From Termitomyces sp. T153 (Eukaryota > Basidiomycota > Agaricomycetes > Agaricales > Lyophyllaceae), in assembly GCA_018296165.2 (NCBI GenBank), contig JACKQL020000008.1, positions 1 to 64,000 of the forward strand: a stretch of 64,000 bases of DNA. The letters run 5' to 3'. Positions within the stretch are counted from its first letter, which is position 1, and each line of letters starts with the position of its first letter. Position numbers and translations under genes: made by a program. Positions 23,327-56,346 of the stretch are shown here, piece by piece. The notes beneath the pieces are model-generated. The model was not told the origin of the DNA, ran no database searches, and was given only the letters and a program-made list of their open reading frames with translations.

Positions 23327-24686
23327 ACAGCTGGCAAAGGAAAATCCAAAGTCTATTCAGTACTGTACAGTGTCTACTGAGATAACTACTCACCTAGCAA
23401 AGGGAAATCCAAAGAGAACAAGTCTGGGAATTCCTTAAACCAGGTGTGATGCTTCAGAGGCTTCAGAAGCATGAGAAACAACTGTACAGTATGACAGAGA
23501 AAGAAGACACAAGTGATGTATCAGCAATTGGTCAGCAGTTACATAAGCTGGTGGCAGTGCTAAAGGGGCCACACTTGTCTGATTTACAGACAGAGAATTG
23601 GTGCAGCCTGAGGGCTGAAACTAGGACCAATAGATAGAGAAAAGGAAGGAAAATAAAGGAAAACTATAATGGAGCAAATTTGACAAGAATTGGAGAAGGA
23701 GAAGGGGAAACAAGTGAGATGTTCCCTGACACTGACCTTCATTGGCAGGTGCCCTGTGCTGCCCCCATCCTTTGCTGCCCCCATCCTTTGCCACCTCACC
23801 TCTCTCCAACGCCTTACCCTGCTGCTCCTCCTCCATCTATGCCATGACCCATGCCCAATCCCAGCCCTGCTCTGCAGCAATGCAGCCTGCATGCCAACTC
23901 GACATAACAGAGCACCTCTTATGCCACAAATGATATAGAAGACACACCAACATGTCCTGCTGTAACCCCAGTGCAGGCTCCTCAAAATTGCACTGTTCTC
24001 CCTGCCAAACACAAGATGAACACTGCAGGAATGGGTTAACTGGAGAAAAGGTAGAATCACAATATCTGCTTACTGGGGCTGCCACTTGGCACCACTTGAG
24101 TGTCAGAGGACCCCTCACCCACCCTACCACCACCACAAACTGCTCTGGCATCACTTCCACCTATGCAACCCTGGAAGTGGAGGGAACAGGCCAGACTACT
24201 CAGGGACCCAGGATGGCTCTGGAATGTGAGGCAGGGGCCACCCCCACTGCCAACTGCACTGGGACCCTGCCTCACAAAAGCCCCAAGGGGCCTGCCACAG
24301 CCTCAGACAACTCTGTCAAGATTCTATCAGCACTCCAGAGCATGAAGACAAGACTGCACTTATGACTATGATACATTGCCTGTACTCACTTACAATCCCA
24401 ATGATCTTCAGAACCCTTAGAGGAAGAAGAGGGAGATTGGGCAGAAGAAGAAGAAGATGCCACTGGGGAATATGCAGAGGAAGACATTGCAAAGAGTTTG
24501 GAAACTCCAGGGTATGTCTGACCCTTTTAATGACTTGGGAAGAACTCCCTGACAAATGGTGGCCACACTTTGACTTTGTTCCTCATGCTGCAGCCACTCA
24601 CTGTGGTCTGATCAATATTACTCAACTTCAATTCCCACACCCTGCCGATCCCCAAACTGTTCCCTGCATCTTGAGGGTCTTGATGC
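23327..24686 (+). other. Unassigned coding-like remnants before LTR B
   Basis: Two stretches look like old coding sequence: a 138-codon plus frame (23952-24365), rich in Thr, Gly and Cys, and a strongly acidic stretch (EEEEGDWAEEEEDATGEYA at about 24420-24476). I cannot name either. The last ~100-170 bp before 24701 should belong to the retrotransposon 3' end because a polypurine tract follows. A probable inversion breakpoint lies between about 24520 and 24690. Confidence 0.35.
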
Positions 24687-24688
24687 TG

Positions 24689-24700
24689 AAGGGGGGGTAA
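24689..24700 (+). promoter_or_regulatory. Polypurine tract before 3' LTR B
   Basis: The stretch AAGGGGGGGTAA abuts the LTR start TGTCACAACC at 24701. Polypurine tracts directly upstream of the 3' LTR prime plus-strand DNA synthesis, so this marks the LTR as a 3' copy attached to some internal element sequence and not a solo LTR. Confidence 0.75.
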
Positions 24701-25760
24701 TGTCACAACCCACTCCCTGGACCCCTGACATTGTTCCCAGCCTGCTTGGTTCCCTGGAGTCCCTCCCCCAATGCCTTGTCAAAACCCCCAACCATCAAAC
24801 ACCCTCCACAGCCACTCCAGGTAACTCTGATGCTTCTCCAGCAAACTCTGATGGCTCCCTGGCTAACTCTGACACTTTCTCCACAGCCATCAATGCTTTT
24901 CTTAACTCTCCTGAGCCCCTGGAACCCTTCCCCACCATTCCTGACCCCATCATACAGCTCTGGCTCACTATCCTGACTCATCCAACCTACTCCAAGGCAT
25001 CATGACAACCCCAGAGCAACCTGTGCCCCCAACTGATCCCATCAGAATATTGCTGCAGCCCACTCCTCAATTGCAACCAACACCCAGTGACTCTGCATGG
25101 CTCCATCTAGCCCTGCTGCCACACCCACTGCCCCTTGGAGCTCTCCAGTAGTCAGTATATAATCCATAGAGTAGCACCTCACACTCTAGTCTTGATATTA
25201 CATTAACTGGTTACTTGTGTCTCATGTCTCTTTCTGTCTCTATTTCTATTTTTAGTCCTGAATCTATCTCTTCTCTCAGTCTCATCTTGTCTCGCCTCCA
25301 TCTTGTCTCAATTGTCTCTATCTTCTTTGTTTCTCTAAGTTCTTTTCATCTCCAATGTCAGTACAAACTCTGCACACATGCTATGATCCCCAAGCATTCT
25401 TATGACAACTCCAGACCTTGTCCATCACTTGGCCCCAGAACCCATCAAGTCTTGATTGATCCCCTGTCAAACTCCAGCTCTGCCTCCATCACTTGCAAAG
25501 CCTCTGCTTGCCCCACAATCTATTTGCACACCTATAAACTTGTTTCTGGCACCTGCCCAAGCCCAACATCTAATATACTTGGTCTTAGACTTCCCCAGAC
25601 CACTCTGGACTTGCTTGGACCACTTCCCTTAGCTTCCCCTCATAAGTCCCTCTAGTCTGTGCCAACCCTGGAGCACTAGGTTATAAGTGCAGGACATCAC
25701 ATCTGCCTAGTGAGGACTCACCCAGTGTAGCTGAGCCCCCATAGTCAGTGGAACCTGACA
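24701..25760 (+). repeat. LTR B: 3' LTR of the split element B/C (1060 bp)
   Basis: It starts TGTCACAACC and ends AACCTGACA (TG...CA). It aligns along its full length with the LTRs at 1167-2230 and 54582-55639, being nearest in length and detail to the latter. A TATA-like AGTATATAAT (25152-25161) stands about 27 bp before AGTCTTGATATTA (25188-25200), the 13-mer complementary to the family's primer-binding site. The next five bases, TCAAC (25761-25765), equal the five bases outside the 5' LTR of element C read in element orientation. Confidence 0.9.
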
Positions 25761-27339
25761 TCAACCATGCCACAGAGAGCAACAATGTCAACTTCATTCT
25801 GTGTGAGATGCTCAGCATGAGCCTCAACAGTTTGCTTTGTCCTGTTGAGGTCAGACATTATGCCCACAACACTTGTGCCCATGATGTCCATGTGCTCATT
25901 GAGTGCTCTAAGCATCATATTGTACCACCAGAGCATCATCTCTATCTCCCCACACCTCATCTCCTCAGCTAACACAAACCCTGACCTCATCTCTTCTTAC
26001 TAATACAGCCTTGATTCCTTCATTGATGAAATCAAGCTGTTGGTTCAACCACACCATAGCTTGTGTAAGGACAGCCTCAACAGATTTGGTGGAGGAGAGA
26101 GGATCTGCTTGCTGCTTGCTCTTTCCCTTTCCACTCATTGTCAGCAGGTCCACTCACTCCTTCCCCTTTCCACTGGCTGCTAGTGGATCTGTCTGTTCCT
26201 TTCCCCTTCCTGTTTCCATGGCTACTAGCATATCCACCAGGCAGATCATCAATGGCCCAGCAACTAGTGTTGTTAGTAAATGATTTCAGTTGGCAAAATC
26301 AACACTTACTCTTGACATACTCAGAAGACTTCAGTTTTCTCTGCCTTTTCTCCTTCTTTCCCTTCTTGCCCCTGTTCCTCCAGACCTCTTCTTTGTGATC
26401 CCTCATGAGACTGCATGTTTTTTTTTGAGGACAAGGCAGCAGGCATTGCATGAGGTTCCTCCTTTGCCTTGACACAGAGGAGCCCCTTCTTTTGACAGTA
26501 TTGGCAAGGGGAGTGGAGCTGTGCCCCTGTGCATGGAGGTGCCATCATGAGGTACTTTCCTAACCTTATTGATGGTGTGATCTTGCCCTGCCAATGTTCC
26601 TTGTCCTTGGAATGATTTTTGTTGTCATTCTCATCATTCTCATTGTCTTTGTCCAAGATGATTGATTCATACTTGGAATGGCTGGGTGGGGGAGGACTAT
26701 GAGGAGGAGTTTGGGCAGTGTATTTCCTCCATTCTCATTGGGGAATCTGTGCTTTGCTAGCCTTTCTGATCAGCCAGGGCCAGGCTGAGACCAGCTCTGC
26801 TGGGGACAATGGACTTGATTCCAATACTCTACCAGGTTTTGATGAGGGACCTGCTGGGGACACCAGACCTGCTACCAGCATCAGCAGATCAATTGCTGAA
26901 ATCCATTTAAAAATTTCCAAAGGTGAGGGATCCAACATTGAACATGGACCTGCTACTTGTCCTGCTGCCTGGCCCTTGTTGACCTCCTGGGCTTCCTTCC
27001 TTGCCTGTGACTCCTTGAAATATGCCTGTGCCTTCTCTTTCAACTCCTCAATTGCCTTTGCATCTGACAGCTTGCCTGATAAACTTCAGAGGGCCTCATT
27101 GAAAAAGCTTTTCCTAGCCTCCAGGATGAGTTGTTTGTTCTTGGCCTGGGAAATTTGCTTCCACAAAGATTTCTTGAACACCATCTGTGAGTGTTGCATA
27201 TTATCCTACAAGTAGGGTTGCTCACCAATTCTTTAACTCTACCCTGGAGATTTGACAAGTCTCCTCTCAGAGCAGAGACCAACACAGAGTTCTCAGTGTT
27301 GTAGAGCTGTTGTAAAAGGATCTCAGTGGATGAAGACAT
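25761..27339 (-). pseudogene. Cys-cluster gene, 5' half (split by retrotransposon)
   Basis: The protein starts MSSSTEILLQQLYNTENSVL at 27339. An intron-like gap (GTGAGC near 27222) follows, then a Lys/Glu/Gln-rich part (about 27060-26960), a Ser/Pro-rich part, and a cysteine cluster: PCQYCQKKGLLC (about 26507-26472) and, in another frame after a T-homopolymer (26418-26427), CNACCLVLKKK. Together these resemble a two-half Zn2Cys6-like cluster. The end is a heptad-like stretch to GMV at 25766. LTR B begins at the next base, with its 5-bp target duplication. The coding frame appears to continue at 55640 on the plus strand. A DNA-binding role is possible, not shown. Confidence 0.55.
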
Positions 27340-28149: not shown

Positions 28150-31100
28150 GTCTCTATGTGTCCTATCCTGGTTCAGAACCAAGTTCTGTGCCTCAGCAGT
28201 TCAACCAACCTCTCAGACTGCAGGTTGGCAAACCATAGTCCAATCTTCAAATCAGGGTTGCTGGCTGTGTCCATAGAGAGTAGGTCATCTGTATCTAGTA
28301 CCATGTCTGTAACAACCAACTCCTCATCTGATATCTTTAGACAGTACCTGGGTTTCCAGTGTTGCAGTATGTTTGTTGGATCACCTGGGTAAGGCTGCAT
28401 ACTCTCTAGAAAGGATTTAAGGGCATAGAATGATTCATTCCTAGACACTTCCATGGTCCTTTGTAAATCCTCAATGCTTCCAGGTGCTCCTCAGTATTCT
28501 CAATTGGGAAGGGGAATTCTAGTAAGTTCATGGGTGGACTCAGATGGACCTCCTCAAAGAATTCTAGCTCAGCTAGTTTGGCATTGGTCAGAGGTTGGAT
28601 AACCTCTTCCTCTTGCCCTGCAGGATGTGGCTCCACTTTCAAAATAATGCCAGCTCCCATGTCATTATCAGAACTTGGTCCCTTGGGAGGGTGTCCCCAC
28701 AACTGACAATTTCATTGTTATTTAGGCAGCCCCCTTCATCCTCCTCCACAGAGGAATCCAACATGGTCCCAAGTTCTGGTAGGTCATCCCATTCAGAACT
28801 CCAGGGAGAGGCTGACTGCTGACCAGATAAGGTCAAATGTGGTCTCTACCCAGGCTGCAGCTGGATGGTGCACCATACTCTGGTAGGGTGGGAGTGATAT
28901 CCTCAATGCTCAAGAGATCTGATGACATGGTCTGCAGGCTTGGTGGGCCTGAAACCACCAACCCCACATCCAGACTGCCATGTAGAAGGTCCCACAATGT
29001 GATGGCCCCAACAGGGAGTTCCATGGTCTCTTCAAAGCTAGCCAGTCAAAGTTGCTCCATCTCTTCCAGGTCCATGGACAGCCTATAGGCACTTATTCTG
29101 GGTGGTTTTCTGGTGGATGATTTGGCTGTGCATGCATGAGTGCAATTACATGCCATGTGGCCCTCCTCCCTACATACAAAACAATGATTTGCCATACACA
29201 GCTCTGCTTCCTCCTCTTTGGTCAATGGAATGCATGGATGGTGAAGCAAGGTTGCAGGTTGGTTGGATTGGGGTTGGTTGGATTGAGATTGCTGTCATTG
29301 TTCAGAGCCACCATATGCATAGATGCCAATTGGCAAGTAATGTTGGTCTTTTTGCCAAACATTGGATACTGTGGCCATCTGGGGCTCTTGGGTCTGTCCT
29401 GCTGTTCCTGCCAGGTTTTGTGGTGCCCCATGCAATGAGAGTTGGCCACCTTACAAGACTCTTCTACATCCACATTGTCTGCCATTTCCTGGTACTCAGC
29501 TTCCTGGACTATAGCATTCCAGCTCATCCATTCAGGGTTGAGGTGAGCATGAAGCAAAGGCTTTTGAATAGATGGTTTAAATCCATTGAATAGCTTCACT
29601 ACCCAAGTTTGGTGGCTATCTGACCCCACAATGGTGAATAATTTGTCCAGGTCAGCCACATAGTCTTTTACAGGTCTACTACCCTGCTCAGATCTCTCCA
29701 GTCACAACTGCTGTTGATTGCAATAATCTATTGGGAAGCAATAGTTAAACAGCTTGGTGAACAAATCCTTTTAATGTCCATTTATGTGGTGCTAATGACA
29801 TGTGGCAAGTATAGAACATATATGCACAGCCAGTCAAAAACTTGGAGAGCACTGTGACCTGTTGACATTTTTCTCCATAGCCATATATTACATAGGCTGT
29901 ACCATGAGTCAGGAATCTCTGGAAGGCCCAATACTCTGCTTGGCCTCCATACTTTTCTGGTGGTGTGGGCTTGATCAGTGTTTGCTGTCATTGGCTACTG
30001 TGGCAAGATCATGATTTTTGACTTTCCTTTCTCCTTACCCCCTTTCCTTTAGTGCAGCCCCAGTGACAATCTTGTCATCAGCCACATTGGCCATTGGAAG
30101 GTTCCAATAAATCTGCACTGGAAGAGCTTGAAGAGGAAGATGAAGAGGGTGGAGAACCTGCAGACAGTCCTGAGCTACTTGCTACCAATATATTATCACT
30201 ATCACTTTCAGATTCAGACTTGGGATCAGATGAGGATGATGCCAAGCTGTCAGAGGGATTGCCATTGGTCGCGCCACCCAGTCACTGAGATGCTTGGCCT
30301 AGAGCACTTTTTCTGGAAACTTGGGCAAAGGGGTTGTTTGCATTTCTCCATTGATTTGTTGACCCCTCAGTCCTGTGTGCATAGTGCAACTTGGTCCCAT
30401 TGTCTGTCACCCAGCCAATCAGTTTGGTGAGCTTGCCTGAGACAGGTGTTGAGCCCAACTGTTCCTTCCTGTTGTGGGCAGTCTGCTTTTTTTTGTTTCA
30501 AACGAGCTAGTTCCTTAGCTAGTAGTTGCTGGTCTTGTAAATAATTTTGCATTTCCTTATGTGACACTGCCTCCTCTGGAAAGATATGTCCTTTCGCAGA
30601 TTGAGCCTTAGTTACTATCAGGGGTTCAGGAGATACTTTGTCCCCCACTGTGGGAGCGTTGGGCTGTTTGGTGGCCGCTCCCGTGTTGGTGAGCCCTGAT
30701 TCCCTTTCATGAGTGGGTGCGCCACCCTTCAACCCAATATCATTGAGCAGCTGATGTTGTAACCCCAGGTCGACCTCAGTGTCTGATAGGCCAAGGCCTC
30801 CCCAGTTATGCAAGTTGACTCCCTTACCCTTGTCCTGAGTCAACCTCCAGATCCAAACTTCCGGAGTCACTGAAATTTTCATCAGCCCAAAATTTAGTCT
30901 CTTTGGACCTGGCCCTATGAGCTTGATTCACCCGCCGATCAACACACTCTCTTTCCTCATCAGTCATTGATTGACGAGCGAGGCTCACTGCTTTTTCCTG
31001 GTATGGAGTGAGTCCAGGTCTGCCAGCCTGAGGGTTCTCGACCTGAGCCTCTTTGACAGGTGGTTAATATCTCAATTTTTTACTGATTTGTACGGGAGTG

Positions 31101-31483
31101 GATTCTCCAGAAAAGATATTATTGCTACCAAAGACAGGACTATTGGTGTCTACTGTCAGGTGGGAGTAAGTGTCGCAGTACTCGTCAGTGCTGGACTTTT
31201 TGTCGTGAGGGCTAGATTGCCGTTCCACCAACATTCCTTCATTTCCTACAAAGTGAGCATCCCTACCAACTACAGGCTCGGGGGCATCCGCTTCACAAGC
31301 GGGCAAGTCGCCGGCTCCCCTGGAGCTCGCGGCGGTGTGGGGTGGTGGTCTCACGGAGTTGTCTAAGTCAGTCGGCCCCGGGGGAGCCTCTTGACTCAAA
31401 CCTTGCTCCCTGTCGACCTCGGGGATTCGTGCAGCTGCAGACTGAGCGATTGTCGCTGAACAAAGATGATTTATATAGGACAT
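28150..31483 (-). pseudogene. Element G: Gypsy-type Gag with CCHC zinc knuckle
   Basis: The N-terminal part starts at the ATG at 31483 (MSYINHLCSATIAQSAAARI) and stays open to 31064. The next segment (30882-30367) includes GKGVNLHNWGGLGLSDTEVD and a Gln/Lys-rich helix. A Gag core lies at 29659-29222 (DLDKLFTIVGSDSHQTWVVK), followed by a zinc knuckle CFVCREEGHMACNC (29183-29142). Later pieces to 28173 are acidic. This is a retrotransposon structural protein; no protease, RT or integrase follows, so the element is truncated at its 3' side. CpG is frequent near 31 kb and almost absent by 29 kb. Confidence 0.65.
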
Positions 31484-32054
31484 AGTTTTAGTAATAGTAT
31501 TTTGGAGTGGTTACTCACGTCTTTGGTAGGGCTGGTTGATCAGGCCAACGGCGTCCAGTGACGAGAGTGAGAGTGCGAAAATAAAAGCTAGGAGTTTGTT
31601 CCTGTTCAAACTATGTGACGTTTGCGTGAGTTGCATGGTGTGATGTTTGCGTGAATTACACAGTAACGTCGCATGAAGAGATACAGATCTTTTGAGACTT
31701 CCATAGGAGAACAGTTGTAAGTCCTAGTATTGGAAGAACTGACCCTGTGTTGGTCTCGGGGACTCGTGCAGCTGCAGACTGAACAATAGTTGCCGAGCGA
31801 AGACGATTCCTATAGGACATAGTTTAGTAATAGAATTTTGAGTGGTTACTCACGTCTTTTGGTAGGGCTGGTTGATCAGGCCAACGGTGTCCAGTGACGG
31901 GAGTAAGAGTGCAAAAAAAAAGAAGCTAGGGGCTTGTTCCTGTTCAGAATATGTGACGTTTGCGTGAATCACACGGTAACGTCGCACGAAGAGATATAGA
32001 AACTTTTGAGACTTCCGTAGGAGAACAGTTGTAAGTCCTAGTATTGGAAGAACT
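31411..32054. repeat. Tandem duplication of the element G leader and gag start
   Basis: A unit of about 310-340 bp occurs twice (about 31411-31748 and 31749-32054). Both copies hold GTGCAGCTGCAGACTGA, GGTAGGGCTGGTTGATCAGG and CAACTGTTCTCC-type sequence (plus strand GGAGAACAGTTG). On the minus strand each copy carries a start codon and the first ~20 codons of gag (starts at 31483 and 31820), so the 5' end of the Gag gene is duplicated. Confidence 0.8.
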
Positions 32055-32420
32055 GAGTAATACGATACATGATTATATATCGTAGGAACTGTAGTATGTA
32101 ATATATAACTGGTAATGTATCGGATAAGTGGAAGATTAGAGGTACCGTTAAATAAGGACCGCGTGGTAAGTCTTGGCAAAACGCGTCGTTACACACGGTA
32201 ACGTCGCACGAAAAGATATAGAAACTTTTAGAGACTTCCGTAGGAGAACAGTTGTAAGTCCTAGTATTGGAAGAACCAACTAATACGATACATCGGAGAG
32301 CTTTATATACCGTACGAACTGTAGTATGTAATATCTAACTGGTAATGTATCGGATTAGTGGGAAATCAGAGGTACCGTTGAATAAGGATCGCGTGGTAAG
32401 TCATGGCAACGCGTCGTTAC
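31971..32420 (-). repeat. Element G LTR with internal tandem duplication
   Basis: Two copies of a ~225-bp block lie head to tail: 31971-32192 and 32193-32420, both starting ACACGGTAACGTCGCACGAA and ending CGCGTCGTTAC. Read on the minus strand the outer edge begins TGTAACGACGCG and is followed by a TATA-like GTATATAAAG (about 32310-32301), pointing transcription toward the gag. I interpret this as the 5' LTR promoter of element G; its inner limit is uncertain. CpG is well preserved. Confidence 0.65.
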
Positions 32421-32502
32421 ATCGGGCCGATTTCGCAGACTATGTTGACGCGCCTAGCCTTTAAGTAGCTCAGCAGCTGAACGCCCATCAGAATTATCCA
32501 CA
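32421..32502 (+). promoter_or_regulatory. Short 5' region of the hydrolase gene next to an LTR
   Basis: Only 82 bp of non-repeat sequence separate the LTR edge of element G from the hydrolase ATG (context CCACAATG). The region is CpG-rich (ATCGGGCCGATTTCGC). The two transcription units diverge, so promoter elements of the gene may extend into the LTR. No clear TATA box is seen for the gene. Confidence 0.5.
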
Positions 32503-33760
32503 ATGTTTGCCTCTCGCACCTACAGGCTCATTGGTGGTATCGACATTTTCTTCACTGACAGTGGCCCACCAGCGCATTCTACTGATTACACGACTTTGAT
32601 CGTCCTCCACGGTAGTGCTTTTACTGGGCGTAAGTTGCCTTCCTCCGACCAGCATTCATGATCAAATAATTCGACAGACGGTTTCGAGAAATTGCACGGC
32701 TACGCTCACAAATGCAACTTGCGAACCGTCATCTGGAACCGTAGAGACTACCCTGGATCGACCAAATACTCGGATGCCGAGATCGACGACCTCAACAATG
32801 GAAGGAAGATTTTTCTCGATCGCCTTGCCATTCAAGTCGCCGACTTTCTTAAGCAATACATCGACAAGGAATCTATTCCGAAAATCAGTACTGACCGCAA
32901 ATCTGGAGGATTCGCCATTATGGGTTGGTCGATGGGTACAGCGACAGCGATGCCCTTGTTCTCCGACCCAAGTCTTATCAGTCCCGAGTTGTACGCTCTT
33001 TTGGAGCAATACGTTAAGGACTTGATCCTTGATGGTATGTATGAGAATTCTGGAAGTAACCTGGTACTGATATCATTCTCAAGATCCTCCCCATCTCTCT
33101 TTCGGCATCATACTTCCTCCTGATGAGAAGACCTACAACCCGTGGACCGATAAGGAGTGCAAGACACCCGAAGAGCTCTACCAGAATTTTGGGTTTTGGG
33201 TGAGCTCGTACTGGACGCACCCTGATGTCTCTGGCACGATCCATGGATTGAACTATCAAAGACGTGGAGATACTCCTACTATCACAACCTGGACTCCCGA
33301 GCAGTTTCACAAGTTTTACAACGAACCAGCTGCTGTGAGGTCTGAGTTGCGCATGTGAGTGCCGGGGGGTGTAATCCTGTTTGTATTGTGTCTCTAACTG
33401 CTCTTGCAGGTATGTTGCTCCGATGCAGTCTACCTTGAATGATCTCACTCACCGCGTACTATATGATGAGAAGCTTGTCAACTCGTTCTTCCCTATGGTT
33501 CCTGTGACGTACATCGGCGCAACGCACACGAACTGGCACTGTGTTTGGTCTTGGATTGAATGCCAAAAGATCTACAATATGTACTTGGCCAAGGGTGTCA
33601 AGGTTAGACTGACGCGTTTTTTCCAGGTCCAAGAAGGGAATCATTTTGTAAGGTGACCTTCAGATATGATGGATGTGCGACTGACGCGATCTGTGCCAAG
33701 GTCCACTGGGATAAACCCAAAGAATTGATGGAATTCATTGTCGCTGGCATCAGAGGATAA
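32503..33760 (+). CDS. Alpha/beta hydrolase, five exons, apparently intact
   Basis: Exons are 32503-32629, 32678-33034, 33084-33354, 33410-33647 and 33701-33760. The four introns of 48-55 bp all have GT...AG ends, and a CTAAC branch motif is visible in the third. The joined frame is 350 codons without stops. The nucleophile elbow GWSMG places the catalytic Ser at residue ~127. LHGSAF near residue 38 fits the oxyanion loop, and GNHFVHWD places the catalytic His at ~330. The acidic triad residue is not certain. There is no signal peptide, so a cytosolic serine hydrolase is likely; substrate unknown. Length suits small fungal alpha/beta hydrolases. It is the only clearly intact gene here and sits in CpG-rich sequence, with only ~82 bp between its ATG and a retrotransposon LTR. 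Confidence 0.88.
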
Positions 33761-34249
33761 AAAACCGTCTACTTTCAGTAAGTCCCAGCCCAAATTCTGT
33801 CAAATCTGTGGGCCTCTGCAGTTTATCGCGTCATGAAGTTTTTGTTGTTTTTTTTTGTTCTTGATCGAAATAGTGATTGTAGTGGGAATCAACCGCCCCG
33901 AACGTCCGCCTTTTTTGATTTTCTGCTGAAGCGACGAGCTGGGACTATCTGCTAAGAACTAATGTAAAGAAACAAAATGTAATATCCATGAACACAACAA
34001 AAAGGTGACGAAGAGAAGATAGGGAGAGGTGGGAGGGTGCGTTAAAACGAACGATACGACTAAACAAATCTTGCTAACGAAAAAATAATCAAGTAAGCTG
34101 ACTGAAAAGCCCGAATGTACTACGTTCGGCTTACTGTAAAAACGAAACTTCGATGCAGCGGACTATGCCTTAAATCAATAAGTTCGTTGTGATATTGCTG
34201 TTCCGAGGTCTACGAAGTAGCCGAGGCTTTACTCCATCTTCAACCGCCA
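33761..34249. other. 3' flank of the hydrolase gene
   Basis: CpG-containing, AT-moderate sequence with no coding block. It probably holds the 3' UTR and terminator of the hydrolase gene; a T-rich run lies at 33840-33860. Confidence 0.5.
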
Positions 34250-34780
34250 AATTTTGTCCTCGATTTTTGCTCCCACATGATTATTATTTAGTTATGCACG
34301 TGATCTTCTGACCGGTATCCTTTTCTTGTCCTCAATTTTTGCTCCCTTCTGGCTATTACCACCAGCTATATAAAATAAATCACATGACTTTGACCTACTC
34401 TGACTGGTATTCTTGTCCTTGATTTTTGCTCCTTTAAGCACGTGACTGGTTTCGACCAAGTATCTTTTTCTTGTCCTCAATTTTTGCTCCCTTCGGCTAT
34501 TACCACTAGCTATCCTCAATTTTTACTCCTTCTGGCTATGACCACCAGCTATTCCTGGCTTGTCCTCAATTTTTGCTCCCTTTGGCTATTACCACTGGCT
34601 ATTCTTGATTTTTACTCCTTCTGGCTATGACCAGTGGCTATTCCTGACTTGTCCTGGATTTTTGCTCCCTTCAGCTATTACCACCAGCTACAGCTATTCC
34701 TGGCTATTCTTTCTTGTCCTCAATTTTTGATTTTTGCTCCCTTCTGGCTATTCCTTGCTCATTCCAGCTAGGAACCACCA
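34250..34780. repeat. Minisatellite, TCCTCAATTTTTGCTCCCTT type
   Basis: At least nine imperfect units of roughly 45-65 bp share TCCTCAATTTTTGCTCC followed by GGCTATTACCACCAGCTAT. CpG persists in the left units (next to the hydrolase gene) and disappears in the right units. It forms the boundary between CpG-rich and CpG-depleted DNA. Confidence 0.85.
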
Positions 34781-43315: not shown

Positions 43316-43372
43316 GCAACAGTTGCCTCCTGTATATAAATAGCAGACTTCTTAGTAGCATGGACATAGATT

Positions 43373-43831: not shown

Positions 43832-46800
43832 TTAATTTTCTTCTCCACTGGCGGCATTGCCAATATCATTGTCATCTATGAGGTCAGTTTGTTTGAGTTC
43901 TCTAAGTCACAAGGTGTCAATGTTGAAAGCATCACTAGGCACTGCTATATGTTCTCTAGTGAAATAAGGGACCAAACAAAAAGTGGCTATGGGGCAATGC
44001 AATACTGAACCATCTAGTTTGCAAAGAATGTAAGCACCACCATGGTTATAAGAAATTACCACCAGTGGGCCCAGGTAACAAGGCTTCATTTTCTTGTTAT
44101 GTGTCACCTCAATTTTAGTGTTCCTCATTAGTACAAGGTTGCCAGCTTGAAATTATTATAGTCACAGATCATAGCAGTGTGTTATGCTTCAAAGCAAATG
44201 GCTGCTAGGTGATGAGCGCTAAGGACATTACTGTGCAGGCAGTTGAGGTCCTCTTAGTGATGTTGAAGATTGATCACTTAGCAGGCTATGAGGTCTGTTG
44301 TTGACAATAGCAAGTTTGGCAGTGGTTGCAAATATGTTGCTTCCACTATGTCAGCCAGCAGGAGAGAGTGAGTACCTGTTGTTGCATAGTAGGGGGAGCA
44401 ACCCATTTGCTTGCAAACCATAACACATTCTGACCAAAAGGCAGAGTAAGTAGCTGTACTCTACCTGGACTGATCACTGTCAACAGCTTTAAAGAGGGCT
44501 TGGTGCACATCAAAGTGGGGTTGCTTGACTATTCCGTTAGCATGCTTATTGTAACCAGAGATCCAAATATAGTGCAAGTTATACTTCTTTGCCAGGTAGG
44601 TGACTGCCTTCAGGATTGGAGGTCCATTGTTGGTAATAATTTTGCTAAGCGCTCCCCAGTGACAGATAATGTCCTCATATATCCATTTGGTGATAGCTTC
44701 AGTGATCTCTCTGGCAAGCATATGGAACTTGGGGTAATGAGATAGCAAACAATGTCCTTGAATGATATATTTGAACTTATTAGAGGGTGGCATGAACATG
44801 GTGTCAACATATATCTTGCTAAACAAGGGCATTGGCATAGTAATGGTCAGTGGGATGAGAACTTTGGTCATCTGGTGTACCTGGCAGAGGTGGCAAGTCT
44901 GGATGTACTATATAATATCAGTGCTACCTTGAGGCCACCAAAATCATTCCAGAAGGGCTGAGCAGGTAGCAAAGAGGCCTCTATGTCCCAAATCATCATG
45001 CATGGCTTTCAAGACTTGCAGGCAACTGGTGGTGAAAACAAACAGCTTGTGAGCACCATCCTGACTTCTTTGCCAAAGTTTGCCTCCCATAACAAAAAAC
45101 ATAGAGGCATAGTTAGCAAATGTAGTATACTCATTGTTGCTAAGGCCTTCAGGTCTGCCAAGATCGTGAAGCCATTCCTTGACTAGAAGTATGCAGGTGT
45201 TGCTGGTAATAGCTTTAGCACTGCAGGGCACATTGCTATATGTAGTGGTGCTATCATCTCAGAGAGGCTGAATATCACTGCTAGTTGCTAGTTATGGGGC
45301 AGTGTCTTTATTGCTAACAAAAGTTGCTAAAGAGTGTAAATGAGGGAACTTGACCAGAGGAGGTAAACAATGGAAAGCTGTGGAGACTTAGCAAAGGAGC
45401 GGCAATAGAAGCTGAACTTGGTGAATGAATCCATGCAGCCAATTGATCCAGTCCTTATAAATGGAGTTGTCACTATCATCAACTGGGAGATTGCCAGGCT
45501 AGGGCAGGCATCACAAAAGACCATTGGGGCCATGGAAAGTTCCTTTGACATGAATGAGCTTGAAGTGGAACATTAATGTTGCCATAATCCATTGGTTCAT
45601 GCTGGCGGAGGGTTGGATATCAGGGTTCTGAAGCATACCCTTAATGTAGCAAGCGTCAACTTTGATGACAAGGTTCCTAATGCTAATAAGGTACATCCAC
45701 AAGGCTTTCAGTGCTTGATAAAGGCTGTAGAGTTCTAACTTGGGCTGACTGAATCTGGCTTCTCTGTTATTTAGTGTAATCAACCCAAAGTAGTTGTAGC
45801 GATGTTCTTTGTGATTGTTGCTAGTGCACTAGCAAAGGTAATAACCAATTGCTATATATGAAGTGTCAACTACTAAGATGACAGAGTCAGGCAATTCATA
45901 GTCAATAGGAACTAGGAACTTAGTGTCTTGTAAGGCTTTCACAAGGTCATGTTGGGCATTTATCTGGTCGGGGCCAAACTCAAAAGGGATGCCAACATGA
46001 GTAAGTTTTGTTAAGTTGTTAGTGCAGTGTGCAAAGTTCTTGACAAAAATCCTAAGTACCCCCACTATGCCCAGAAAAGCTTAGACTTCCAATAGCAACT
46101 TGCAAGGGCCCCACCACTTGATTAGGGCTAAGTGACTTTTGTCAGGGATTTGACCACTAGGAGTGCAAACATGACATAGAATCTTGAAAGTAGGGGCACA
46201 TAGAATGAGTTTGTGACCAGAGAAGGTGCTGCTACAATACTTTATTTGCTGGAAAATCCTGTTGAGAAGTTTGAAGAACTCCCATAGCACTAGGCAAATG
46301 TTTGGGTAAGCAGGATGCTTAGCAGGTTTACCATTAACAATCTTCCAGTCCTTGGGTCCCTTAGTGCCAACATTGTCAATAAAGCTGAGCACATTATAGG
46401 GGATCTCTGGCTGTAAAATAAAGGTAATATCATCATGAAATATAGGCACAGAGTTGGTCCAGCCCATTGGCAAAGTTACTAAGTGAAGGGCACCAAACAG
46501 AGTCTGGAATGTCATTAAGTCACATAAGGCAGGGTCAATAAGTTGCTTGTTATAGCCAATGTAGAGGTCAAGGATGGTGCTGCAGATGCATCCAGCAAAA
46601 GATTTGGCAACATGATCTGGAAAAGGTGACACTCTGGAATGGTGAATGGTGACATGATTTAGCAGCTCAAGGCTGTGCACAATCCTGAGCTTACCACTCT
46701 TCTTGAGAACACAAAACCATTGTGAGCAGTAAGCAGAGTTCAAGGTTCATAGATGCCAGCATTAATCTTGTCACAAATGATCTTACATACTTCCTTTTCC

Positions 46801-47521
46801 AGCCCTAGGGGTATGGGACAGTTGTGCTAAACCCAAGGTACATGAGGTATTGTTGGTATACATACTGGCAGGAAGAAGCCAGGGTGCAAGCTTCCCCATT
46901 CAGAATCCTTCCAGGCAAAAGCTTTTTCCTGCTTGGCAACCATGTTGACCAGCACTTTGATTTTGTCACTAGTGAGAAAGCCTATGTCATGGTCCTTGAC
47001 AAGTTTTGCTTGTCATTCGCTAGTGAATTGCTTTGTTGGGATGAAAGGTAGTGGGTTAGGATTGAGCAAAGGGATTGTTGCTAGTGGATTGCTAATAATC
47101 TGGTGCTTGATTCAGAAATCCTTGCTAAGTGCCTCTTGCACTGACATAATGTGGTAGATTAGGCCTGGCAGCACTGGATTCTCCTTAATGGAGTGTTGGT
47201 AGCACTTGCACTGATCTACAATGGGCTCTCCCACTGAAGTTGAGTCAGGGGGTCAGGCAGATGGATTGTTTGCTAGTGGGGCACTGACAGAGGGCCACAG
47301 CAGATCCTGGAGCATGGTAGAAGGTGGTGATGGATGTGGGAGAGCCACTTCTGGGACATCTAGAGGTCCTAGTAACAGTGGTGGCCCAACTGGAGGTGGA
47401 TATGGTGGGGAGGATAGCAGAGGTAGAGCCGGAGGGGGAGGAGGAGTAGGGGGTTTTCTTGGACTTGTCTTCTTGTGCTCTGTATTAACCCTTCTTGTGT
47501 AATATTGTGTAATACTGTACA
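43832..47521 (-). pseudogene. Element D: Gypsy pol (RT, RNase H, integrase)
   Basis: Blocks in order on the minus strand: a linker (QEKAFAWKDSE, then IPTIPHVPW) at 47000-46830; RT at 46743-46081 (WFCVLKKSGKLRIVHSLELL, FGALHLVTLPMGWTNSVPIF); RNase H-like at 46065-45511 (FEFGPDQINAQHDLVKAL, LNNREARFSQPKLELYSLYQ); integrase zinc region at 45231-44890 (LGHRGLF, TCHLCQ); integrase core at 44871-44461 (FSKIYVDTMFM, ITNNGPPILK); and a C-terminal beta part to 43832 (KPCYLGPLVVISYN). The RT catalytic motif reads FIDN (46372-46383): the second Asp is lost. Gag and protease are missing at the 47.5 kb side. Stops and shifts are numerous. Confidence 0.8.
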
Positions 47522-47655
47522 TGTTTCTACAATTGTTCTTCAGACTTCCAGCCTAGGGGGTTGAATTTTCTTAGTGTTAAGTGAGGGGGAGTGAATAAAG
47601 CATATAGGAGGTACTTGTGGGAGTTGAATCCCTAATAAATCCAGAGGTGGGAGTC

Positions 47656-50600
47656 ATGCCCAGCAATGCCATCTGTGTTTGCTAGTCCTAGGGGTCCCAG
47701 GGCTTGGTGGGGTGCTGTCAATGGAAGTCCTGGAGTTTTTCAGGGGCTCTGTCAAGGTTTTTTTGGGGTTTCCAAGTGTTGTCCTCAGGTTCATAGCCCT
47801 TCCAGTGGACCAAGTACTGGGATCAGCCATGGACCATGCAGGAGTTGAGGATTTGGTTGACCTCATAGTGATATTCATCCTTGACTTTGATAGGGGGCAG
47901 TCAACTGGGGTATTGCCCAGGGAAGAGGTCCAGAGCATATTTTTCAAGGGGTCATACATGGAACACAGGGTGGAGGCCCTTCAGGCCTGGGGGTAGGTTG
48001 AGCTTGTAGGCATGCATGGAGACCTTTTAGAGGACTTTGAAAGGACTAAGACATTTGTGATTGAGCTTGACAGAAGGCCTATAAGTCTTGAGATTTCTTT
48101 GATTGAGCTAGACCAAGGTGCTGGAGGGCCAGTCAGGGGTTGGTTTGCATCAGGTGTTGGCATACTTGGAGTAGGCTTGATTTGCAGTGTTGATCTCATC
48201 CTGGAGGAACTGGTAAAGGGACTGGAGGTCTTCAGCAACTTTGTGGGCAATGTGGGAAGGAATATCTATGAGGAATAGTGTAAGTTGGGAGTTGTAGCCC
48301 TTATTGGCATAGAAAGGGGAAACTCCAGTGGTGGAGTGCAGTGTGTTGTTGTAGGTAAACTTGGTGAGGGGGAGTTCCACATGCCAATTGTTCTGTAAAT
48401 AGCTAGCATAGAGGTGGAGATACTGTTCCAATGTCTGGTTTACTCATTCTATCTGTCCATTGGTCTCCAAGTGATAGGTGGTGGAGAGGTCAGTTCTTAT
48501 CTCAAGTGCTTTGCACAGCAATTGCCAGAAATGGGAGACAAACAGAGGTCTGCAGTCAAAGATGATGTCATCTTGGAGTTTGTGTTTGGAGAATACATGT
48601 TCAAGGAATAATTTGGCAAACTCCAGAGCATTGTTGGTGGTGTGGCAGGGGATGAAGAGAGCTTGTTTGGTGAGGCAGCAGACAATGATGAGGATTGTGT
48701 CAAAACCTTTGGAGTTGGGGAGTTCAATGATGTGATCCATTCAGATTGAGGACCAGGGGCACTAACCAATGGGAAGGGGCTTCAATAATTCAAGGGTGGT
48801 GGCAGAGTACCTTGGCTCAGAGACAAGGTTTGCAGGCCCTTACATATTGTGTGACATCCTTCTTCATTCTTGGCCAAAAGTAAATCCATGAGATGAGCTG
48901 AAAGGTCTTATGAATTCCTGGGTGCCCACAGAGCTTGTGGTTATGGTGTTGCTAGAGTATGTTGAGGCAAATGGACTTGTGGTCTGGAGCATAGATTCAT
49001 CCACTCCAGAGCAAGAGGCAGTGGTCTGGAGATAGCATGAAGGGGTTTTTGGCACTTGATTCATCAGTGGAGTTGTTGTGGGAATCATGCTGGGCAAAGA
49101 AGGAGTCTGGGGGTGAATTTCCAATTTGGTGGAGGATTCCTTCTTTGTTTAAAATTAGCATGGCATGTAGATGTTCAGGGGGAATTATCACTCAATGGTT
49201 GAATGTGTTCTGCTCAGCTTCAAATGACTTCTTTAGATACATGTCAGACCTTCACATAAGTATGTTGGGCTTTGTGCTAAGTCATCTGGGGCAGTAGTGG
49301 ATGGTAAAGTCATACTCCAAGAGTTCAGACCATTGAGCTTGGCAGCAGCTGAGTTGCTTTGTAGTTGTGAAGTATTGCAGATTGTTGTGATTGGAGTAGA
49401 CTTGAATGTGGTGCAGGGATCCCTCAAGGTAGGCCTGCCACTGATGGAAGGCTTTGACAATTGCAAGGAGTTCTTTGTCATAGATGTCATAGTTGAGCTC
49501 CATGGGGATCATTGAATGGGTGTAGAAGGTGACAGAGCAGAGATCCTTGCCTCTAGAGTCTGACTGGGAGAGTATTCCAGCAATAGCATAGTTGGAGGCA
49601 TCACACTCAAACATGATCAGCAGAGAGGGGTCAAAATAGTGGAGAACTGGAGCAGAGGTGAAGGCCTTTTTGAGGAGGAGGAATACACTTTGGCACTTGC
49701 TGTCTCAATCCCAAGGAGTGTCCTTCCACATGAGTGGGTTGAGGGGTTTGGTGATTCCAGAGTAGTTGTTGATGAATCAGCAATAAAAGTTAGCAAACTC
49801 CAGAAATGACTGTACCTCCTTGACATTCTGCAGTGGGGGCCAGTTGAGTATGGCTTTGACCTTGGCAGGGTCCATGCATACACCATCAGGAGTGATGATG
49901 ACTCCAAGGTATTTGACCTCCATCATGTGGAAGAAGCATTTCTTGGGTTTGGCATGGAGGTAGTACTCCTGAAGTCATTCTAGAATGCAGCAGACATGAT
50001 CTGGATGCTCCTTGGGTGAGTTTGAGTAGATCAGTATGTTGTCCAGGTACACAATAACAAAAATGTCATTCATGTTGTGGAAGATGTCATTCATGAAGTA
50101 CTGGAAAGTGGTGGGTGAGTTAGTCACTCTGAAGGGCATTACTAGGTACTAAAAGAGGCCATAGTGGATGTGAAAGGTGGTCTTCCATTCATGTCCTGGA
50201 GCAATCCAGACATTGTTGTAGCCAGAGCAGAGATCTATCTTTGTGTAGATCTTGGCACTGAAGAGGCAGTCAACAAGGTCTCCAATCAGGGGAAGAGAAT
50301 ACCAGTTCTTCTTTGTGACTTTGTTGAGTTCCCAGTAATCTACACAGAGTCAGAGTGATCTGTCCTTCTTCTTGGTAAACAAGACCAGAGCACCAGCAGC
50401 AGAGATTGACAGGCATATGAAGCCTTTGCCAAGCATGTCATTGAGGTATTTCTTCAGGGCCTGGAGCTCAATCTTAGACATGTTATAGATTTTGCCAAAT
50501 GGGGGTGAGGTGCGTCTTTCAAGGTTGATCTTGTGATCATAGGAGAAATGTAGGGGAAGTTCTTTGGCACTCCCTTTAGAGAACATGTCAGCAAATTCAT

Positions 50601-52049
50601 AATACTCTGGAGGAACTACTTTGTATAGAATCTGCTCCTCCATTTTGCACTCTGGCAGGGTAGTTTCTGCACAAAGGTGCTCCTCCAGTAGGGCTAGCAT
50701 GATTTGTAACTGAAAGGTGGGGGTGCCATCTTGTAAGATGCATGCAAAGGGGATGGTGCTGATGATTTTGATATCAAGGTTTCTGGAGTTGATGGGGGTA
50801 GGCAATGGGGTGGTAGCAGTTGTGTCTGGAGTGGTGGCAGAGCTGTTTGGAGGGGTTGAACATTGCTGGTTGGAGTACCACAGGCCTTTGTATCGATTCT
50901 GGGATATGTTGGGGGGCGGCCATTATGATTTGATTGAGGATGACCAAGGTGAGGGTGCATTTTCTTTACTTTCTGGGTTGCCATTGAAGGTGGAGGGGCT
51001 TTGGGTTGCTCCAGAAGTGCTGACACTAGGGTTGGGGATGTTGGAGTCTGAGATGGACTGGAGGCAAAGGGGGATGGCAGCTGCTAGACTTGCTTTGGGG
51101 CCAGGAAACCACATGGTGAGATTCTTCCAGTCAATGTTGGGGTTGACATCTTGTAGCCACAGAAGTCCAAGCATGATTGGAGTCATTGGGGGGAGTTGGG
51201 TGATGAGAAGCTAGGCCTGAAACCATAGGTCATTGTTAAGGGTGAGAGTGTTGTTGTGGTATTGAGTGATTCCTATCATGGCAGAGCTCCCATTGAAGAG
51301 TTGGAGCTCAAGGGGTTTGTCAAGGTTGTTGCATTGGAGGTCAAGTTGACTGCTAATGAAGATGCTGGAGGTGCCACTGTCAATGAGGGTGGGGAGGACC
51401 TTGGGTGAGTTGTCAAGTCAGACATTGATGACAAACAACTGCACAGACCTTGAGCAGAGCTGCAAAGGAGTCCAGAGTTGGTCAATCATGGCCTCAGAGT
51501 TCTTGGAGGGGGGTGAGACATCAAAGGGCACTAGTCTAGAGTTGGTCAGGTTGCCCCAGTCAAGGCAGAGGATGAGGCTGGGCCAGTCAATGCATGGATT
51601 GGTGGAGTAGAGCCATAAGAAGCCTAAGATGATGGAGGCAGAGGAGTGTAGTTTTGTGATGAGTAATTGGAGTTCTTGCTGTCACTCATTGGCAAAGGTC
51701 ATGGTCATCTCCAAGCAGTGTGTGATATCTCTGATGAGGGTGGGGTCATCATCAAAGAGCTTGAGGAGGATTGAAGTAGGGAGGCGTCAGAGGTGTTAGG
51801 AAGTAAGTGCCACCAGGGATTCATTGATGAAGTTATCTGTGGCACTACTGTCAACCAATGTGGGGACAGAGTTGTCAGAGAAGAAGAGGATGATGTGATG
51901 GAGGATGGTAGTGGAAGAGTGGGAGGGGAGGTGTGCTGGGAGGTTGTCTGGAGTGAATACCATTGCATGGAGAAGTGGGCCAGGGTGGAGAAGATGTTGG
52001 GGTCTGGTCCATGAGTCTAGTGTGTTTTCAAGACCTAAACTGCTGACTT
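47656..52049 (-). pseudogene. Pol of element C with chromodomain
   Basis: Two retropepsin-like motifs are seen: LVDSSAT (Asp codon at 51850-51852) and LIDSGTS (Asp codon at 51379-51381). RT begins around 50700 (VPPEYYEFADMFSKGSAKEL, SPPFGKIYNMSKIELQALKK) and its catalytic motif reads YLDN (50038-50049), so the second Asp is lost. RNase H covers 49614-49282 (ELNYDIYDKELLAIVKAFHQ). The integrase zinc region lies near 48960-48830, the integrase core at 48740-48444 (MDHIIELPNSKGFDTILIIV, ending LETNGQIE), then HVELPLTKFTYNNTLHSTTG (about 48375). A chromodomain reads [15 protein letters not shown] at about 47820-47775; such domains target integration to heterochromatin. Stops and shifts break all parts. 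Confidence 0.85.
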
Positions 52050-54549
52050 GTTTTCCATAAACTGGTAGTTGCAGTCTTCTCCATCAATAGTCCACATAGC
52101 ACATCCCATCACCTGGTGTTTAGGACAGTTACTAATAAAGTGTCCCTGCTCACCACATAGGATGCATGTGCCCTCCTTCTGTCATTTCTCCTGTGTCTTC
52201 TCTGGTACATTGACCCATAGTCTATTCCAAATTTTATTTGCACATAGGGCTTCTTGGTTGTCAGTGGAATCTGAAGTGTTATTGAAGTCATTGGAGTTGG
52301 TGTCCAGGGGTACTGGGGCCTCATGGAGGTCAGTGGCATTGAGTTGGGCAGGGAAGCACTGTTTTGGGAGTTGATTGGTGCTGGAAGGTCCTCAGCCCAG
52401 AGGGAAACAGAGTACAGAGTTGGCGGGATTGACAGAGATTGAAGGTCAATTGCTGTTGGTTGCTCTAGCCTGCCACTTGGTGTTGCTGGAGGTGTTCCAC
52501 AAGGTCCACAGTGCTGTGTTCTCACTCTGGTCCTCCCAGTGATGCTAGTTGACCTGAGTAACAAGTGCCTTGTATTTGTCATATGTGGTTTGCTTGGGTG
52601 TGAGACAGAGGACATCCTTGATCTGCTGAGGCAGGGTGTGATGGAGAGCAAATTGGAGAGTGTTATAGTTCCACCTGGTTTTGTAGGCTTCCCATTCAAA
52701 TCATATGATGAAGGTTGTGAAGTGCTCATTGTTGCACATTTGGAGGTTGAAGAATTTCTTCTCTGCTTCTGCTACAGTATCAAAGATGCCAAACTTACTA
52801 AAGAATTCCTGGGTGAAAGCAGGCTAGTTGGAAAGTATGGAGTTGTTGGGATCAAATTGGAGTAGTGTGGTGTAATGGTCAAAAGAGATACTCTGCAAAT
52901 ATGATGCAGCAAAGAGTACTCATGAGCTTTCAAGCTGGAAGGTAATGGGCTTAGCTTGGAACATCATTAGACACTGTGTTAGAAAGATGTGCCACTTCCA
53001 GGGGTCATGGCCAGTGAAAAGTTTGGACTTTTGAATGTCAAGTTTTCCTTCCCAAGCCAGTGTGTTGTGAGTATTGTCCTGTGTGTTTTGAGTTTGGGGT
53101 GGGGATCCAGCATAGTAGTAGTAATAAGAGTTGTTTTCATTTCTGCACTGGGGGGGAAAGTTGTCCATGGCTAGGCCCCATCCTCTAGGTAGTCCACTGT
53201 TGGGAGGCCTGCTGCCAGGGAGTTGACCTGCATTGCCCAGGGGAGGTTCTGGGGCCTATCAAGGGGGAGGGGGTCCTCTGGGGGTGGGGGGTTCAAAGTA
53301 ATTAGTGTTGGTGGAAGGGTTGGGCATCAGAATGGGTGGAGGATGAGGGAGGTTGGTGAGAAAAGGGGGTCAGAGTGCCCTGGGGCCCATGGGTTGTTTC
53401 AGAGGGACTGGGATGCTCTGGTGGGGTGGAGGGATGTTGATATAGAGGGTGTGGAGATCAAAATGGGGAGGTCTGTCTCATGGAGGGCCATTGCATGAGG
53501 TGAGCTTGTCGGTGGAGTTACCAGGCTTGTCAATATAGGAGAGAGTCCAGTTGTTGTTATTGATATATGGGAGCAGCCATTGTGCATGGGGCTCAGGGGT
53601 GGGTGGCAGGCTGATCCCATGTATGGAAAGCGCTGGGGACAGAGTTGGCCTAGGAACAAGTAGAGGGAGCCAGGGTGTGGGCAGCAGGTTGGTTAAACAA
53701 TCTTTCTGCAGGGTTGAAGTTCCTCAAAAGGCTGAAGGCTGTGTTAAGTTCTTCCTGCTGGTGGAGAATGGGAGGTAGGGCTTTGCTTTGTGTCCCAACA
53801 GGTTCCTTTCATTGCACATAGAAGGAGTAGGAGGAGTCCAGAGGGTCTTTGAATAGCCAGGAGTTCAGACTGGTGTGGATTTCTCTAATCAATGCATAGT
53901 GCTTATTTTGTAAATTAGTGTCAATTCCCAGAGTGCCTTGTGTAGTTTTGGGGAGGTTTCCCTGCAGGTAGCATTTGTAGAAGCCAAGGAGTTGGTCTGC
54001 CCAAACTTCTGGAGTGGTGGGGGTAGCAGGGTAGCCTAGGTTGACAAGGAGAGTGCAAGTGCACCTTGCAAACTCCACAGAGGAGAGGCAGAGGAAGTGG
54101 AGAACTTCATTATGCTGTTGGACATAGGCTTTGACCCTTTGCTGCTTAGAGGAAGGGAGGACTTGAATGGAAAATGGCAGACAAGGAGGAGAATAATTAT
54201 CTGGGTGCTTCAGAGGGGCTGGGGCTGCAGTGGGAACTGGGTATGCATAGTAGTGAGTGGAGGGAAGGTAGGTAGGGTTGGGGGGTGCTGTGGAGTATCC
54301 TCTAGGGTACATGCAGGGGTTGTTGCCATCAGCAGGAAATGCTAGAGAGTAGCACTAGCCTAGAGAGATTCCTTGGCTGATGGAGAGGGCATAGAATGCC
54401 TGGTTGGGGTCAGGGGTCTAATAGTGGGGAATGTACTGATCTGCAGGAGAGCTGGGGTAAAACGAGGCATATTGGTTTTTAGGGACTGGCTGACCATAGA
54501 CATCAGTTAGGTCACTGGCAGGATTGTACATGGAGTTATATACAGACAT
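52050..54549 (-). pseudogene. Gag of element C
   Basis: It starts at the ATG at 54549, just inside the primer-binding site, and matches the Gag of element A through the AYVQQHNEVLHFLC block (about 54130). A Pro-rich middle follows. A capsid-like Gag domain lies at 53168-52540 (FTGHDPWKWHIFLTQCLMMF, then a block with FFSKFGIFDTVAEAEKKFFN). A CCHC zinc knuckle CILCGEQGHFISNC (52166-52125) is intact in spacing, preceded by an in-frame TGA that probably was CGA. Acts as particle protein and RNA binder. Confidence 0.8.
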
Positions 54550-54568
54550 CAAGAATGGGGTAAGGGAG

Positions 54569-54581
54569 AGTCTTAATATTA
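54569..54581 (-). promoter_or_regulatory. Primer-binding site of element C
   Basis: Next to the LTR the minus strand reads TAATATTAAGACT. It differs by one base from the complement of the LTR 13-mer at 55141-55153 (AGTCTTGATATTA on the minus strand). The same arrangement is perfect in element A. It supports Tf1-like self-priming for the family. Confidence 0.65.
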
Positions 54582-55639
54582 TGTCAGGTTCCACTGACTA
54601 TAGGAGCTTAGCTACACTGGGTGAGTTCTTACTAGGCAGATGTGATGTCCTGCACTTATAACCTAGTGCTCCAGAGTTGGTGTGGACTAGAGGGACTTGT
54701 GAGGAGAAGCTAAGAGAAGTGGTCCAAGCAAGTCTGGAGTGGTCTGAGGAAGTCTAAGACCAAGTATATTAGACATTGGGCTTAGGCAAGTGCTAGAAAC
54801 AAGTTTGTAGGTGTGCAAATAGATTGTGGGGCAAGCAGAGCTTTGCAAGTGATGGAGGCAGAGCTGGAGTTGGATGGGGGATCAATCAAGACTTGATGGG
54901 TTCTGGGGCTGAGCAATGGATGAGGTCTGGAGTTGTCATAAGAATGTTTGGGGATCATAGCATGTGTGCCGAATTTGTACTGATATTGGAGATGAAAAGA
55001 ACTTAGAGAAACAAAGGAGATAGAGACAATTGAGACAAGACAGAGGCAAGACAAGATGAGACTGAGAGAAGAGATAGATTCAGGACTAAAAATAGAAATA
55101 GAGACAGAAAGAGACATGAGACACAAGTAACCAGTTAATGTAATATCAAGACTAGAGTACGAGGTGCTACTCTACGGATTATATACTAACTACTGGAGAG
55201 CTCCAGAGGGCAGTGGGTGTGACAGCAGGGCTTAATGGAGCCATGCAGAGTCAATGGGTGTCAGTTGCAATTGAGGGGTGGGCTGCAGTGATATCCTGAT
55301 AGGATCAGTTGGGAGTGCAGGTTGCTCTGGGGTCATTGTGATGCTTCAGAATAGGTTGGGTGAGTCAGGGTGGTGAGCCAGAGACATATAATAGAGTCAG
55401 GAACAGTGAGGGAGGATTCTAGGAGCTCAGGAGAGTCAAGGGAAGTGTTGACAGCTGTGGAGAAGGCATTGGAGTTAGCCAGGTGGCTGTCAGAGTTTTC
55501 CAGAGAAGTGTCAGAGTTACCTGGGGTGGCTACAGAGGGTGTTCAATGGTTGGGAGTTTTAACAAGGAATTGGGAAGGAACTCTGGAGAAGCAAGCAGGC
55601 TGGGCACAATGTCAGGAGTCCAGGGAGTGGATTGTAACA
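54582..55639 (-). repeat. 5' LTR of element C (1058 bp)
   Basis: In element orientation it begins TGTTACAATCC at 55639 and ends AACCTGACA at 54582. It aligns end to end with LTR B and LTR A. A TATA-like TATATAAT lies upstream of the 13-mer at 55141-55153. The five bases outside it are GTTGA (55640-55644), the complement of TCAAC outside LTR B. Confidence 0.9.
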
Positions 55640-56346
55640 GTTGACAACATTCAGAACCAGCTTCAAATCTCATCCCTCCCCATCCAACCAGCCTCCAGCA
55701 CCAGCAGCTTTCCACCTGTGCTGGCTCCTACTCTGGCACTCATTGCTGAGGCAGAAGAGCCCAACAATGACAAGGCTGCCCAGCCCAAAGAGGATGAGAG
55801 CAAGATGGACTGTGCCACTGCTGTTGATCAGTTTGCCATTGCTGACAACTCCACTCTCATCAGCAACCCTGTTGCTACTGTCACTAACTCTGGTATTCCC
55901 AGTGGGTCTGCCACTGACTCTGTCACTTCCACCAGGTCCACTGCTAGCATCACTGACTTGGCCATCACTACCAACTCCATCACTCCCACTGGGCCTACTA
56001 CCAGCATCATCAATTCTGCCATTGCCACCAGACTGGCAGCTAGCAATGAATCCACTGTGCCCATTGGTGTTGAATCCATTTTGGCCAGTCACATTGCTGC
56101 AACTGGGCAATTGATGGATGTGAATACAACAGGCCCAGCACCACCTCATGCTCCAGATGAGATTGTGCCATGATGTGGCTGCAGCACCTCCCATGTGACA
56201 TGACCCCCCACCAAATGTACCTGTTTCTCCAGTTGTCTAGCAAGTAATAGAAAGGCTGATGAACATGCTGAGGAAGCAATAGTCAAGAAGATGAAGGAAG
56301 CATGAAAAGGATGAGGGCCACTGAACTTTATTGACATTTTTTGGAC
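55640..56346 (+). pseudogene. Cys-cluster gene, 3' half (split by retrotransposon)
   Basis: The open frame begins exactly at the LTR edge (GTTGAC AAC ATT CAG, reading VDNIQNQLQISSLP) and stays open to a TGA at 56171-56173. It then continues recognisably (NRKADEHAEEAIVKKMKEA, about 56245-56301) to about 56346. The protein is rich in Ser, Thr, Ala and Ile with a Lys/Glu-rich end. No upstream start exists on this side because the LTR intervenes. The frame fits directly onto the 5' half at 27339-25761, which ends GMV at the same target sequence. Confidence 0.6.

Follow-up and report, generated by a model that had tools for sequence, protein, structure and literature searches.

Two long terminal repeats with one target sequence

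How did two long terminal repeats (LTRs) on opposite strands of one stretch of DNA, with outer flanks now 29.9 kb apart and in opposite orientation, come to adjoin the same five-base target? The window, the whole 64,000-nucleotide stretch analyzed here, is positions 1–64000 of contig C8 in the genome (72.4 Mb in 307 contigs) of Termitomyces sp. T153; Termitomyces is a termite-cultivated agaric. An earlier note on this DNA proposed one antisense retrotransposon insertion, later split by an inversion that broke inside the element. We found LTR B (24701–25760, plus strand) and LTR C (54582–55639, minus strand) as it had described them, B adjoined by TCAAC (25761–25765, plus strand) and C by GTTGA (55640–55644, plus strand), the same 5-bp target outside both. 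In this element, hereafter element 1, the LTRs are 1.06 kb long and have TG...CA ends, and the target duplication is short; C is the 5′ LTR and B the 3′ LTR. A 5-bp match alone would arise by chance about once in 1000 (arithmetic assuming equal base use); the B–C match goes beyond chance, since the host halves flanking the LTRs are contiguous in 22 other places in the genome and the two halves of a second repeat, E, in 15. Part of a related element, A, lies at 11–2230 (minus strand), with an LTR (1166–2230) that shares about 76% identity with B and C.

The interrupted host sequence is a multicopy repeat

Outside LTR B, a minus-strand frame ends in ...VDIVALCGMV with GA left over, and outside LTR C the plus-strand letters read GTT GAC AAC in the same phase, confirming the claimed in-phase join across a single target copy. 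The frame also stays open past the junction, although for 177 codons from 55640 (ORF 55364–56173) rather than the suggested 165 or so. We searched the strain's own genome separately with the left host stretch (25761–27000, minus strand) and the right one (55640–56400, plus strand, frame open to 56173), scoring the best 40 candidates per search (of 106 for the left half) and obtaining 41 and 40 non-self rows, respectively. The 22 contiguous places, drawn from these best-scored rows, divide into 11 in which the halves overlap by exactly 5 bp, so that the target is present once, and 11 with a 2-nt gap at the target; three of them (C244, C168 and C78) share one score, as duplicates of a single copy might.

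Locus L012 holds the joined form as one open frame (...NIVALQGMVNNIQNQLQN...), and 16 of the 55 Termitomyces proteins homologous to that frame span the GMV/DNIQNQ point at our alignment threshold. Uninterrupted homologues joining at this point, which the earlier note had proposed as a check, were thus found both in the strain's own genome and among Termitomyces proteins. The L012 frame, the one frame of the repeat that we scanned, has no Pfam match that would confirm the Cys-cluster label of the earlier note. Contiguity in 22 places, the open L012 frame and the spanning proteins together indicate that the interrupted sequence is a multicopy, coding-like repeat (106 first-look candidates, best 40 scored).

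The two parts of element 1 meet at a single base

The 5′ part of element 1, outside the inverted block (47132–55639, minus strand), comprises LTR C and ~7 kb of internal sequence; the 3′ part, inside the block (22718–25760, plus strand), comprises ~2 kb of internal sequence, a purine run directly upstream of LTR B (by eye) and LTR B itself. Small inserts lie at about 50776–50938 and 51078–51425 in the 5′ part and at about 23286–23765 in the 3′ part, the last being ~480 bp long, with pieces that recur in L003, L007 and L082. The element at B had been described as a 3′ end with a polypurine tract alone, which holds for the purine run but overlooks the internal sequence from 22718; similarly, the element at C does lack its 3′ end, but stops at 47132, not at ~47.65 kb.

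A near-complete relative, L049 (C10:576900–585899), places the break. Its positions 1–7026 map to window 54654–47132 on the minus strand and its positions 7028–9000 to 22718–25157 on the plus strand, with small inserts on the window side in both; a single L049 base separates the parts that map to 47132 and 22718, and base-level alignment returned an identical break. The breaks therefore lie between 22717 and 22718 and between 47131 and 47132, bounding an inverted block of 24,414 bp (22718–47131), and the ~24.6- and ~47.65-kb breakpoints of the earlier note are rejected. In L004, the 3′ part upstream of its LTR matches that of element 1, and the break point is intact in L004 and in 8 of 13 further copies (L060–L072), with the length seen in L049; L065, counted among the eight, is the L004 locus again, and L059 is L049 itself. 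The remaining five comprise L063 and L066, which are off by one base, and L067, L070 and L071, with gapped or partial alignments.

A Pfam scan that included the L049 and L012 frames returned families for 3 of 10 frames. L049 frames matched reverse transcriptase and RNase H families (PF00078, 1.3e-31; PF17919, 2e-29; PF17917, 1.2e-27), and L049:6040–6366 matched a chromodomain (PF00385, 1.2e-7) and PF24626 (1.4e-14); the frame at L049:5291–5854 has no Pfam match and resembles an integrase by eye only. On these predicted domains, which belong to the relative and not to the window copy's pol, element 1 is a chromodomain-type Ty3 LTR retrotransposon. Chromoviruses are the chromodomain-bearing Ty3/Gypsy LTR retrotransposons. 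Like them, L049 carries RVT_1, RNase H, Tf2-1-like SH3 and chromo domains, in separate frames, and element 1 has LTRs, a 5-bp target duplication and a purine run; the window copy differs in being split, in carrying small inserts and in being CpG-depleted.

A second repeat, E, is restored by the same reversal

If the breaks lie here, the stretch up to 22717 and the stretch from 47131, read in reverse, would once have been neighbors. The stretches tested were 21918–22717 (plus strand), left of the inversion, where 22717 itself looks like a 1-nt filler, and 46332–47131 (minus strand), inside the block, where 47129–47131 is either filler (CAC on the minus strand) or a decayed piece of E. From 40 left and 39 right non-self rows came the 15 contiguous places, 13 with the halves within 3 nt of each other and two with an 18-nt unaligned gap. 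Decayed E frames at 44461–46746 (minus strand) resemble reverse transcriptase, RNase H and integrase zinc-binding domains. In Pfam these frames gave RNase H (E = 2.3e-4) and H2C2 (E = 0.022), both below the gathering score, and no family for the frames at 46081–46746 and 44461–44907; the scan containing them returned families for 3 of 10 frames, all under the curated cut-off. The frame at 46081–46746 has 504 homologues, and PF00078 appears on some of the 120 matches listed. By homology, E is classed as a reverse transcriptase-related repeat distinct from element 1.

Each present join is crossed by the window's own locus alone among the hits scored. At the left join, all 39 other hits end at 22716 or earlier (best 40 of 300 candidates); at the right join, 38 other hits stop at 47128 and the remaining one falls entirely beyond the join (best 40 of 117 candidates). 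The claim that one reversal restores the host repeat, the element and the target duplication together holds once the reversal is placed at 22718–47131, where it makes E whole too.

With matching targets, contiguous host halves, complementary parts of element 1 and of E, and joins that no other scored hit crosses, the locus very probably reflects a single insertion of element 1 and a subsequent inversion of 22718–47131 by end-joining of two breaks. Insertion plus inversion fits the four half-sites to within 1–3 nt, and contiguity of the host and E halves supports the earlier proposal of an antisense insertion and a later inversion with a break in the element. Element 1 would have inserted antisense into one copy of the coding-like host repeat, duplicating TCAAC, with E to its left and the later break point in E 24.4 kb from that in element 1. 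Two later double-strand breaks, one within element 1, in its 3′ internal part, and the other within E, would then have released a segment that was rejoined turned round as today's 22718–47131. The order of events and the two-break mechanism are what we infer from this fit. The inversion cut two different elements, an ordinary type of event that is unusually well witnessed here.

Letters at the joins point to end-joining

The present left join reads ...CCACATTA, T, CTGGGG..., and the right join, on the minus strand, ...GCAAGAGG, CAC, TTAGCAAGG.... In uninterrupted E copies, TTA precedes GTGAGG or GCAAGG; at the break point, L004 has AAGAGG, A, CTGGGG. Set against these letters, E's TTA is present at each join, element 1 has lost one base, and 1 and 3 nt look like filler (unless CAC is decayed E). 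The breaks show no long inverted match; the best local score over ~600 bp was 13, compared with 10 for direct matches, without a shuffled control. Short filler, the 3-bp duplication and the lack of a long inverted match favor end-joining as the most likely route of repair over recombination between inverted repeats.

In Drosophila, PMC4965816 describes inversions arising through staggered double-strand breaks and their repair. The present case resembles these in having two breaks without repeat recombination and a duplication at a break, and differs in that 24 kb is involved, within a mushroom repeat island, with a duplication of only 3 bp (TTA), and in being deduced by fitting two repeats in one genome rather than by comparing arrangements. 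Inversions in Atlantic cod are ascribed to ectopic recombination between transposable elements, according to the part of PMC12368964 consulted; there as here, transposable elements lie at both breakpoints, but those in the window are unrelated at the break points and gave no long inverted match.

Alternative explanations

An assembly error that placed a 24-kb segment backwards has a small chance of being correct. Both breaks fall in multicopy repeats, which speaks for it, but the error would require two reciprocal chimeric joins. The repeats joined there are unrelated and have no long inverted match, so the assembler cannot have been misled by shared sequence. Moreover, the window contains zero N, and a second case occurs on another contig (C35), although in the same assembly.

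Two separate insertions into two host-repeat copies at the same site, truncated later, are less probable still. The many copies of the host repeat would have offered such sites, and the LTRs leave room for this reading. B and C are mutual best matches by raw identity, at 88% (best 40 of about 3,560–3,573 candidates), the next best among the 40 scored being 86% for B and 85% for C. The divergence check proposed in the earlier note found B and C closest by raw identity, which we count as uninformative. B and C differ by 113 transitions and 10 transversions, and each differs from L004 by 8 transversions, so the two are no closer to each other by that count. Private changes common to B and C were absent among 17 LTRs, in which the C10 pair has 4 and the C35 pair 8. 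A tree of the same 17 LTRs (without that of element A, which is present in a separate 10-row tree) left B and C ungrouped while grouping the pairs on C10 (100/98) and on C35 (100/100), the latter recognized as a pair only after this tree; a tree holding B and C together was not rejected (p-AU 0.19). Because transitions dominate, B is short-branched in the LTR trees and no private site is shared, we set aside LTR identity as support for the pairing of B and C. An insertion from a copy without private changes would give such a pattern, which still does not support the pairing. Two insertions, however, leave unexplained why the parts of element 1 are complementary to one base, why the host parts are complementary, and why the halves of E fall at these same two points.

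Homologous recombination between inverted copies of a repeat, which dense repeats and the present inverted arrangement of LTRs B and C might suggest as the cause of the inversion, is the least credible of all, as the breaks lie outside the LTRs, a long inverted match is absent there and, if the inversion took place as proposed, the LTRs had direct orientation beforehand.

An insertion apparently shared with strain J132

In Termitomyces sp. J132, protein J132_09534 (P0033) is 98.75% identical over 160 amino acids to the right host half (window 55691–56170), and the 27 residues at its start align with the outer end of LTR C at 89%, the gene model spanning window 55546–56170. Since it matches both the outer end of LTR C and the right host half, the insertion appears to be common to J132 and the window strain. 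The protein cluster of the hydrolase described below (P0056) bears the name J132_09537, and the closeness of this tag to J132_09534 fits either orientation of the block. Among the 120 matches listed of the 504 homologues of the E reverse-transcriptase frame, we saw no J132_0953x name.

Contents of the inverted block

Besides the left host half, repeats and part of E, the inverted block holds one alpha/beta-hydrolase gene (32503–33674, plus strand), confirming its placement there in the earlier note. It matches P0056, a 350-amino-acid Termitomyces protein, in three stretches and, when spliced by eye, agrees with it at 92% identity. Elsewhere in the genome this gene has a single match, at 65% over about 400 bp; with no other close copy, no second haplotype of the block was seen by that test.

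The CpG observed/expected ratio in the window is 0.025 outside 30.5–35 kb and 0.81 inside. Within the CpG-normal island (30500–34500) lie the hydrolase gene and, at about 31.4–32.4 kb, direct repeats. Elsewhere in the window, one repeat family with 35-bp spacing occupies 14466–14640, 17269–17513 and 19553–19692, with a lone copy at 5342–5411. Rfam gave 0 matches at gathering score, and a separate Pfam scan returned families for 0 of 10 frames. A literature search combining basidiomycete CpG depletion, transposable elements and methylation found none with these terms. Raw identity between LTRs can be a misleading guide in DNA with so little CpG.

A second split element and its implications

At C35:437656–463119 (L076, L077, L082–L085), an LTR pair of the element 1 family lies in opposite orientation 23.3 kb apart, the 5′ LTR preceded by CTTGG and the 3′ LTR accompanied by a purine run and followed by CTTGG. 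The outer flanks, which lie 24.4 kb apart here, adjoin each other in 17 other places (39 non-self rows for each flank; counted by eye), with an overlap of 5 bp in 15, 4 bp in one and 3 bp in one. From these matches, the C35 element is apparently another family member split by inversion. Among the LTR matches scored, the pairs on C8 and C35 are the two near-full-length pairs on opposite strands within 40 kb, and each reads as the two halves of a single insertion; this count sets aside LTR fragments at 2.68 Mb on C1. The phrase "split by an inversion" was absent for LTR retrotransposons among the literature matches listed, and we make no claim that such cases are unreported.

Two repeats and a target duplication, serving as internal witnesses, allow an inversion to be placed to a few bases from a single genome. 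The window and C35 suggest an inexpensive screen for inversions, namely opposite-strand LTR pairs with equal target duplications in gene-poor repeat islands; in T. cryptogamus, such islands are named in the part of PMC10021994 consulted. We offer it as a tentative idea, on balance doubtful, that Termitomyces repeat islands may be inversion-prone, with inversions of tens of kilobases recurring in them, and that many seemingly truncated LTR elements of this genome may be the halves of inverted pairs.
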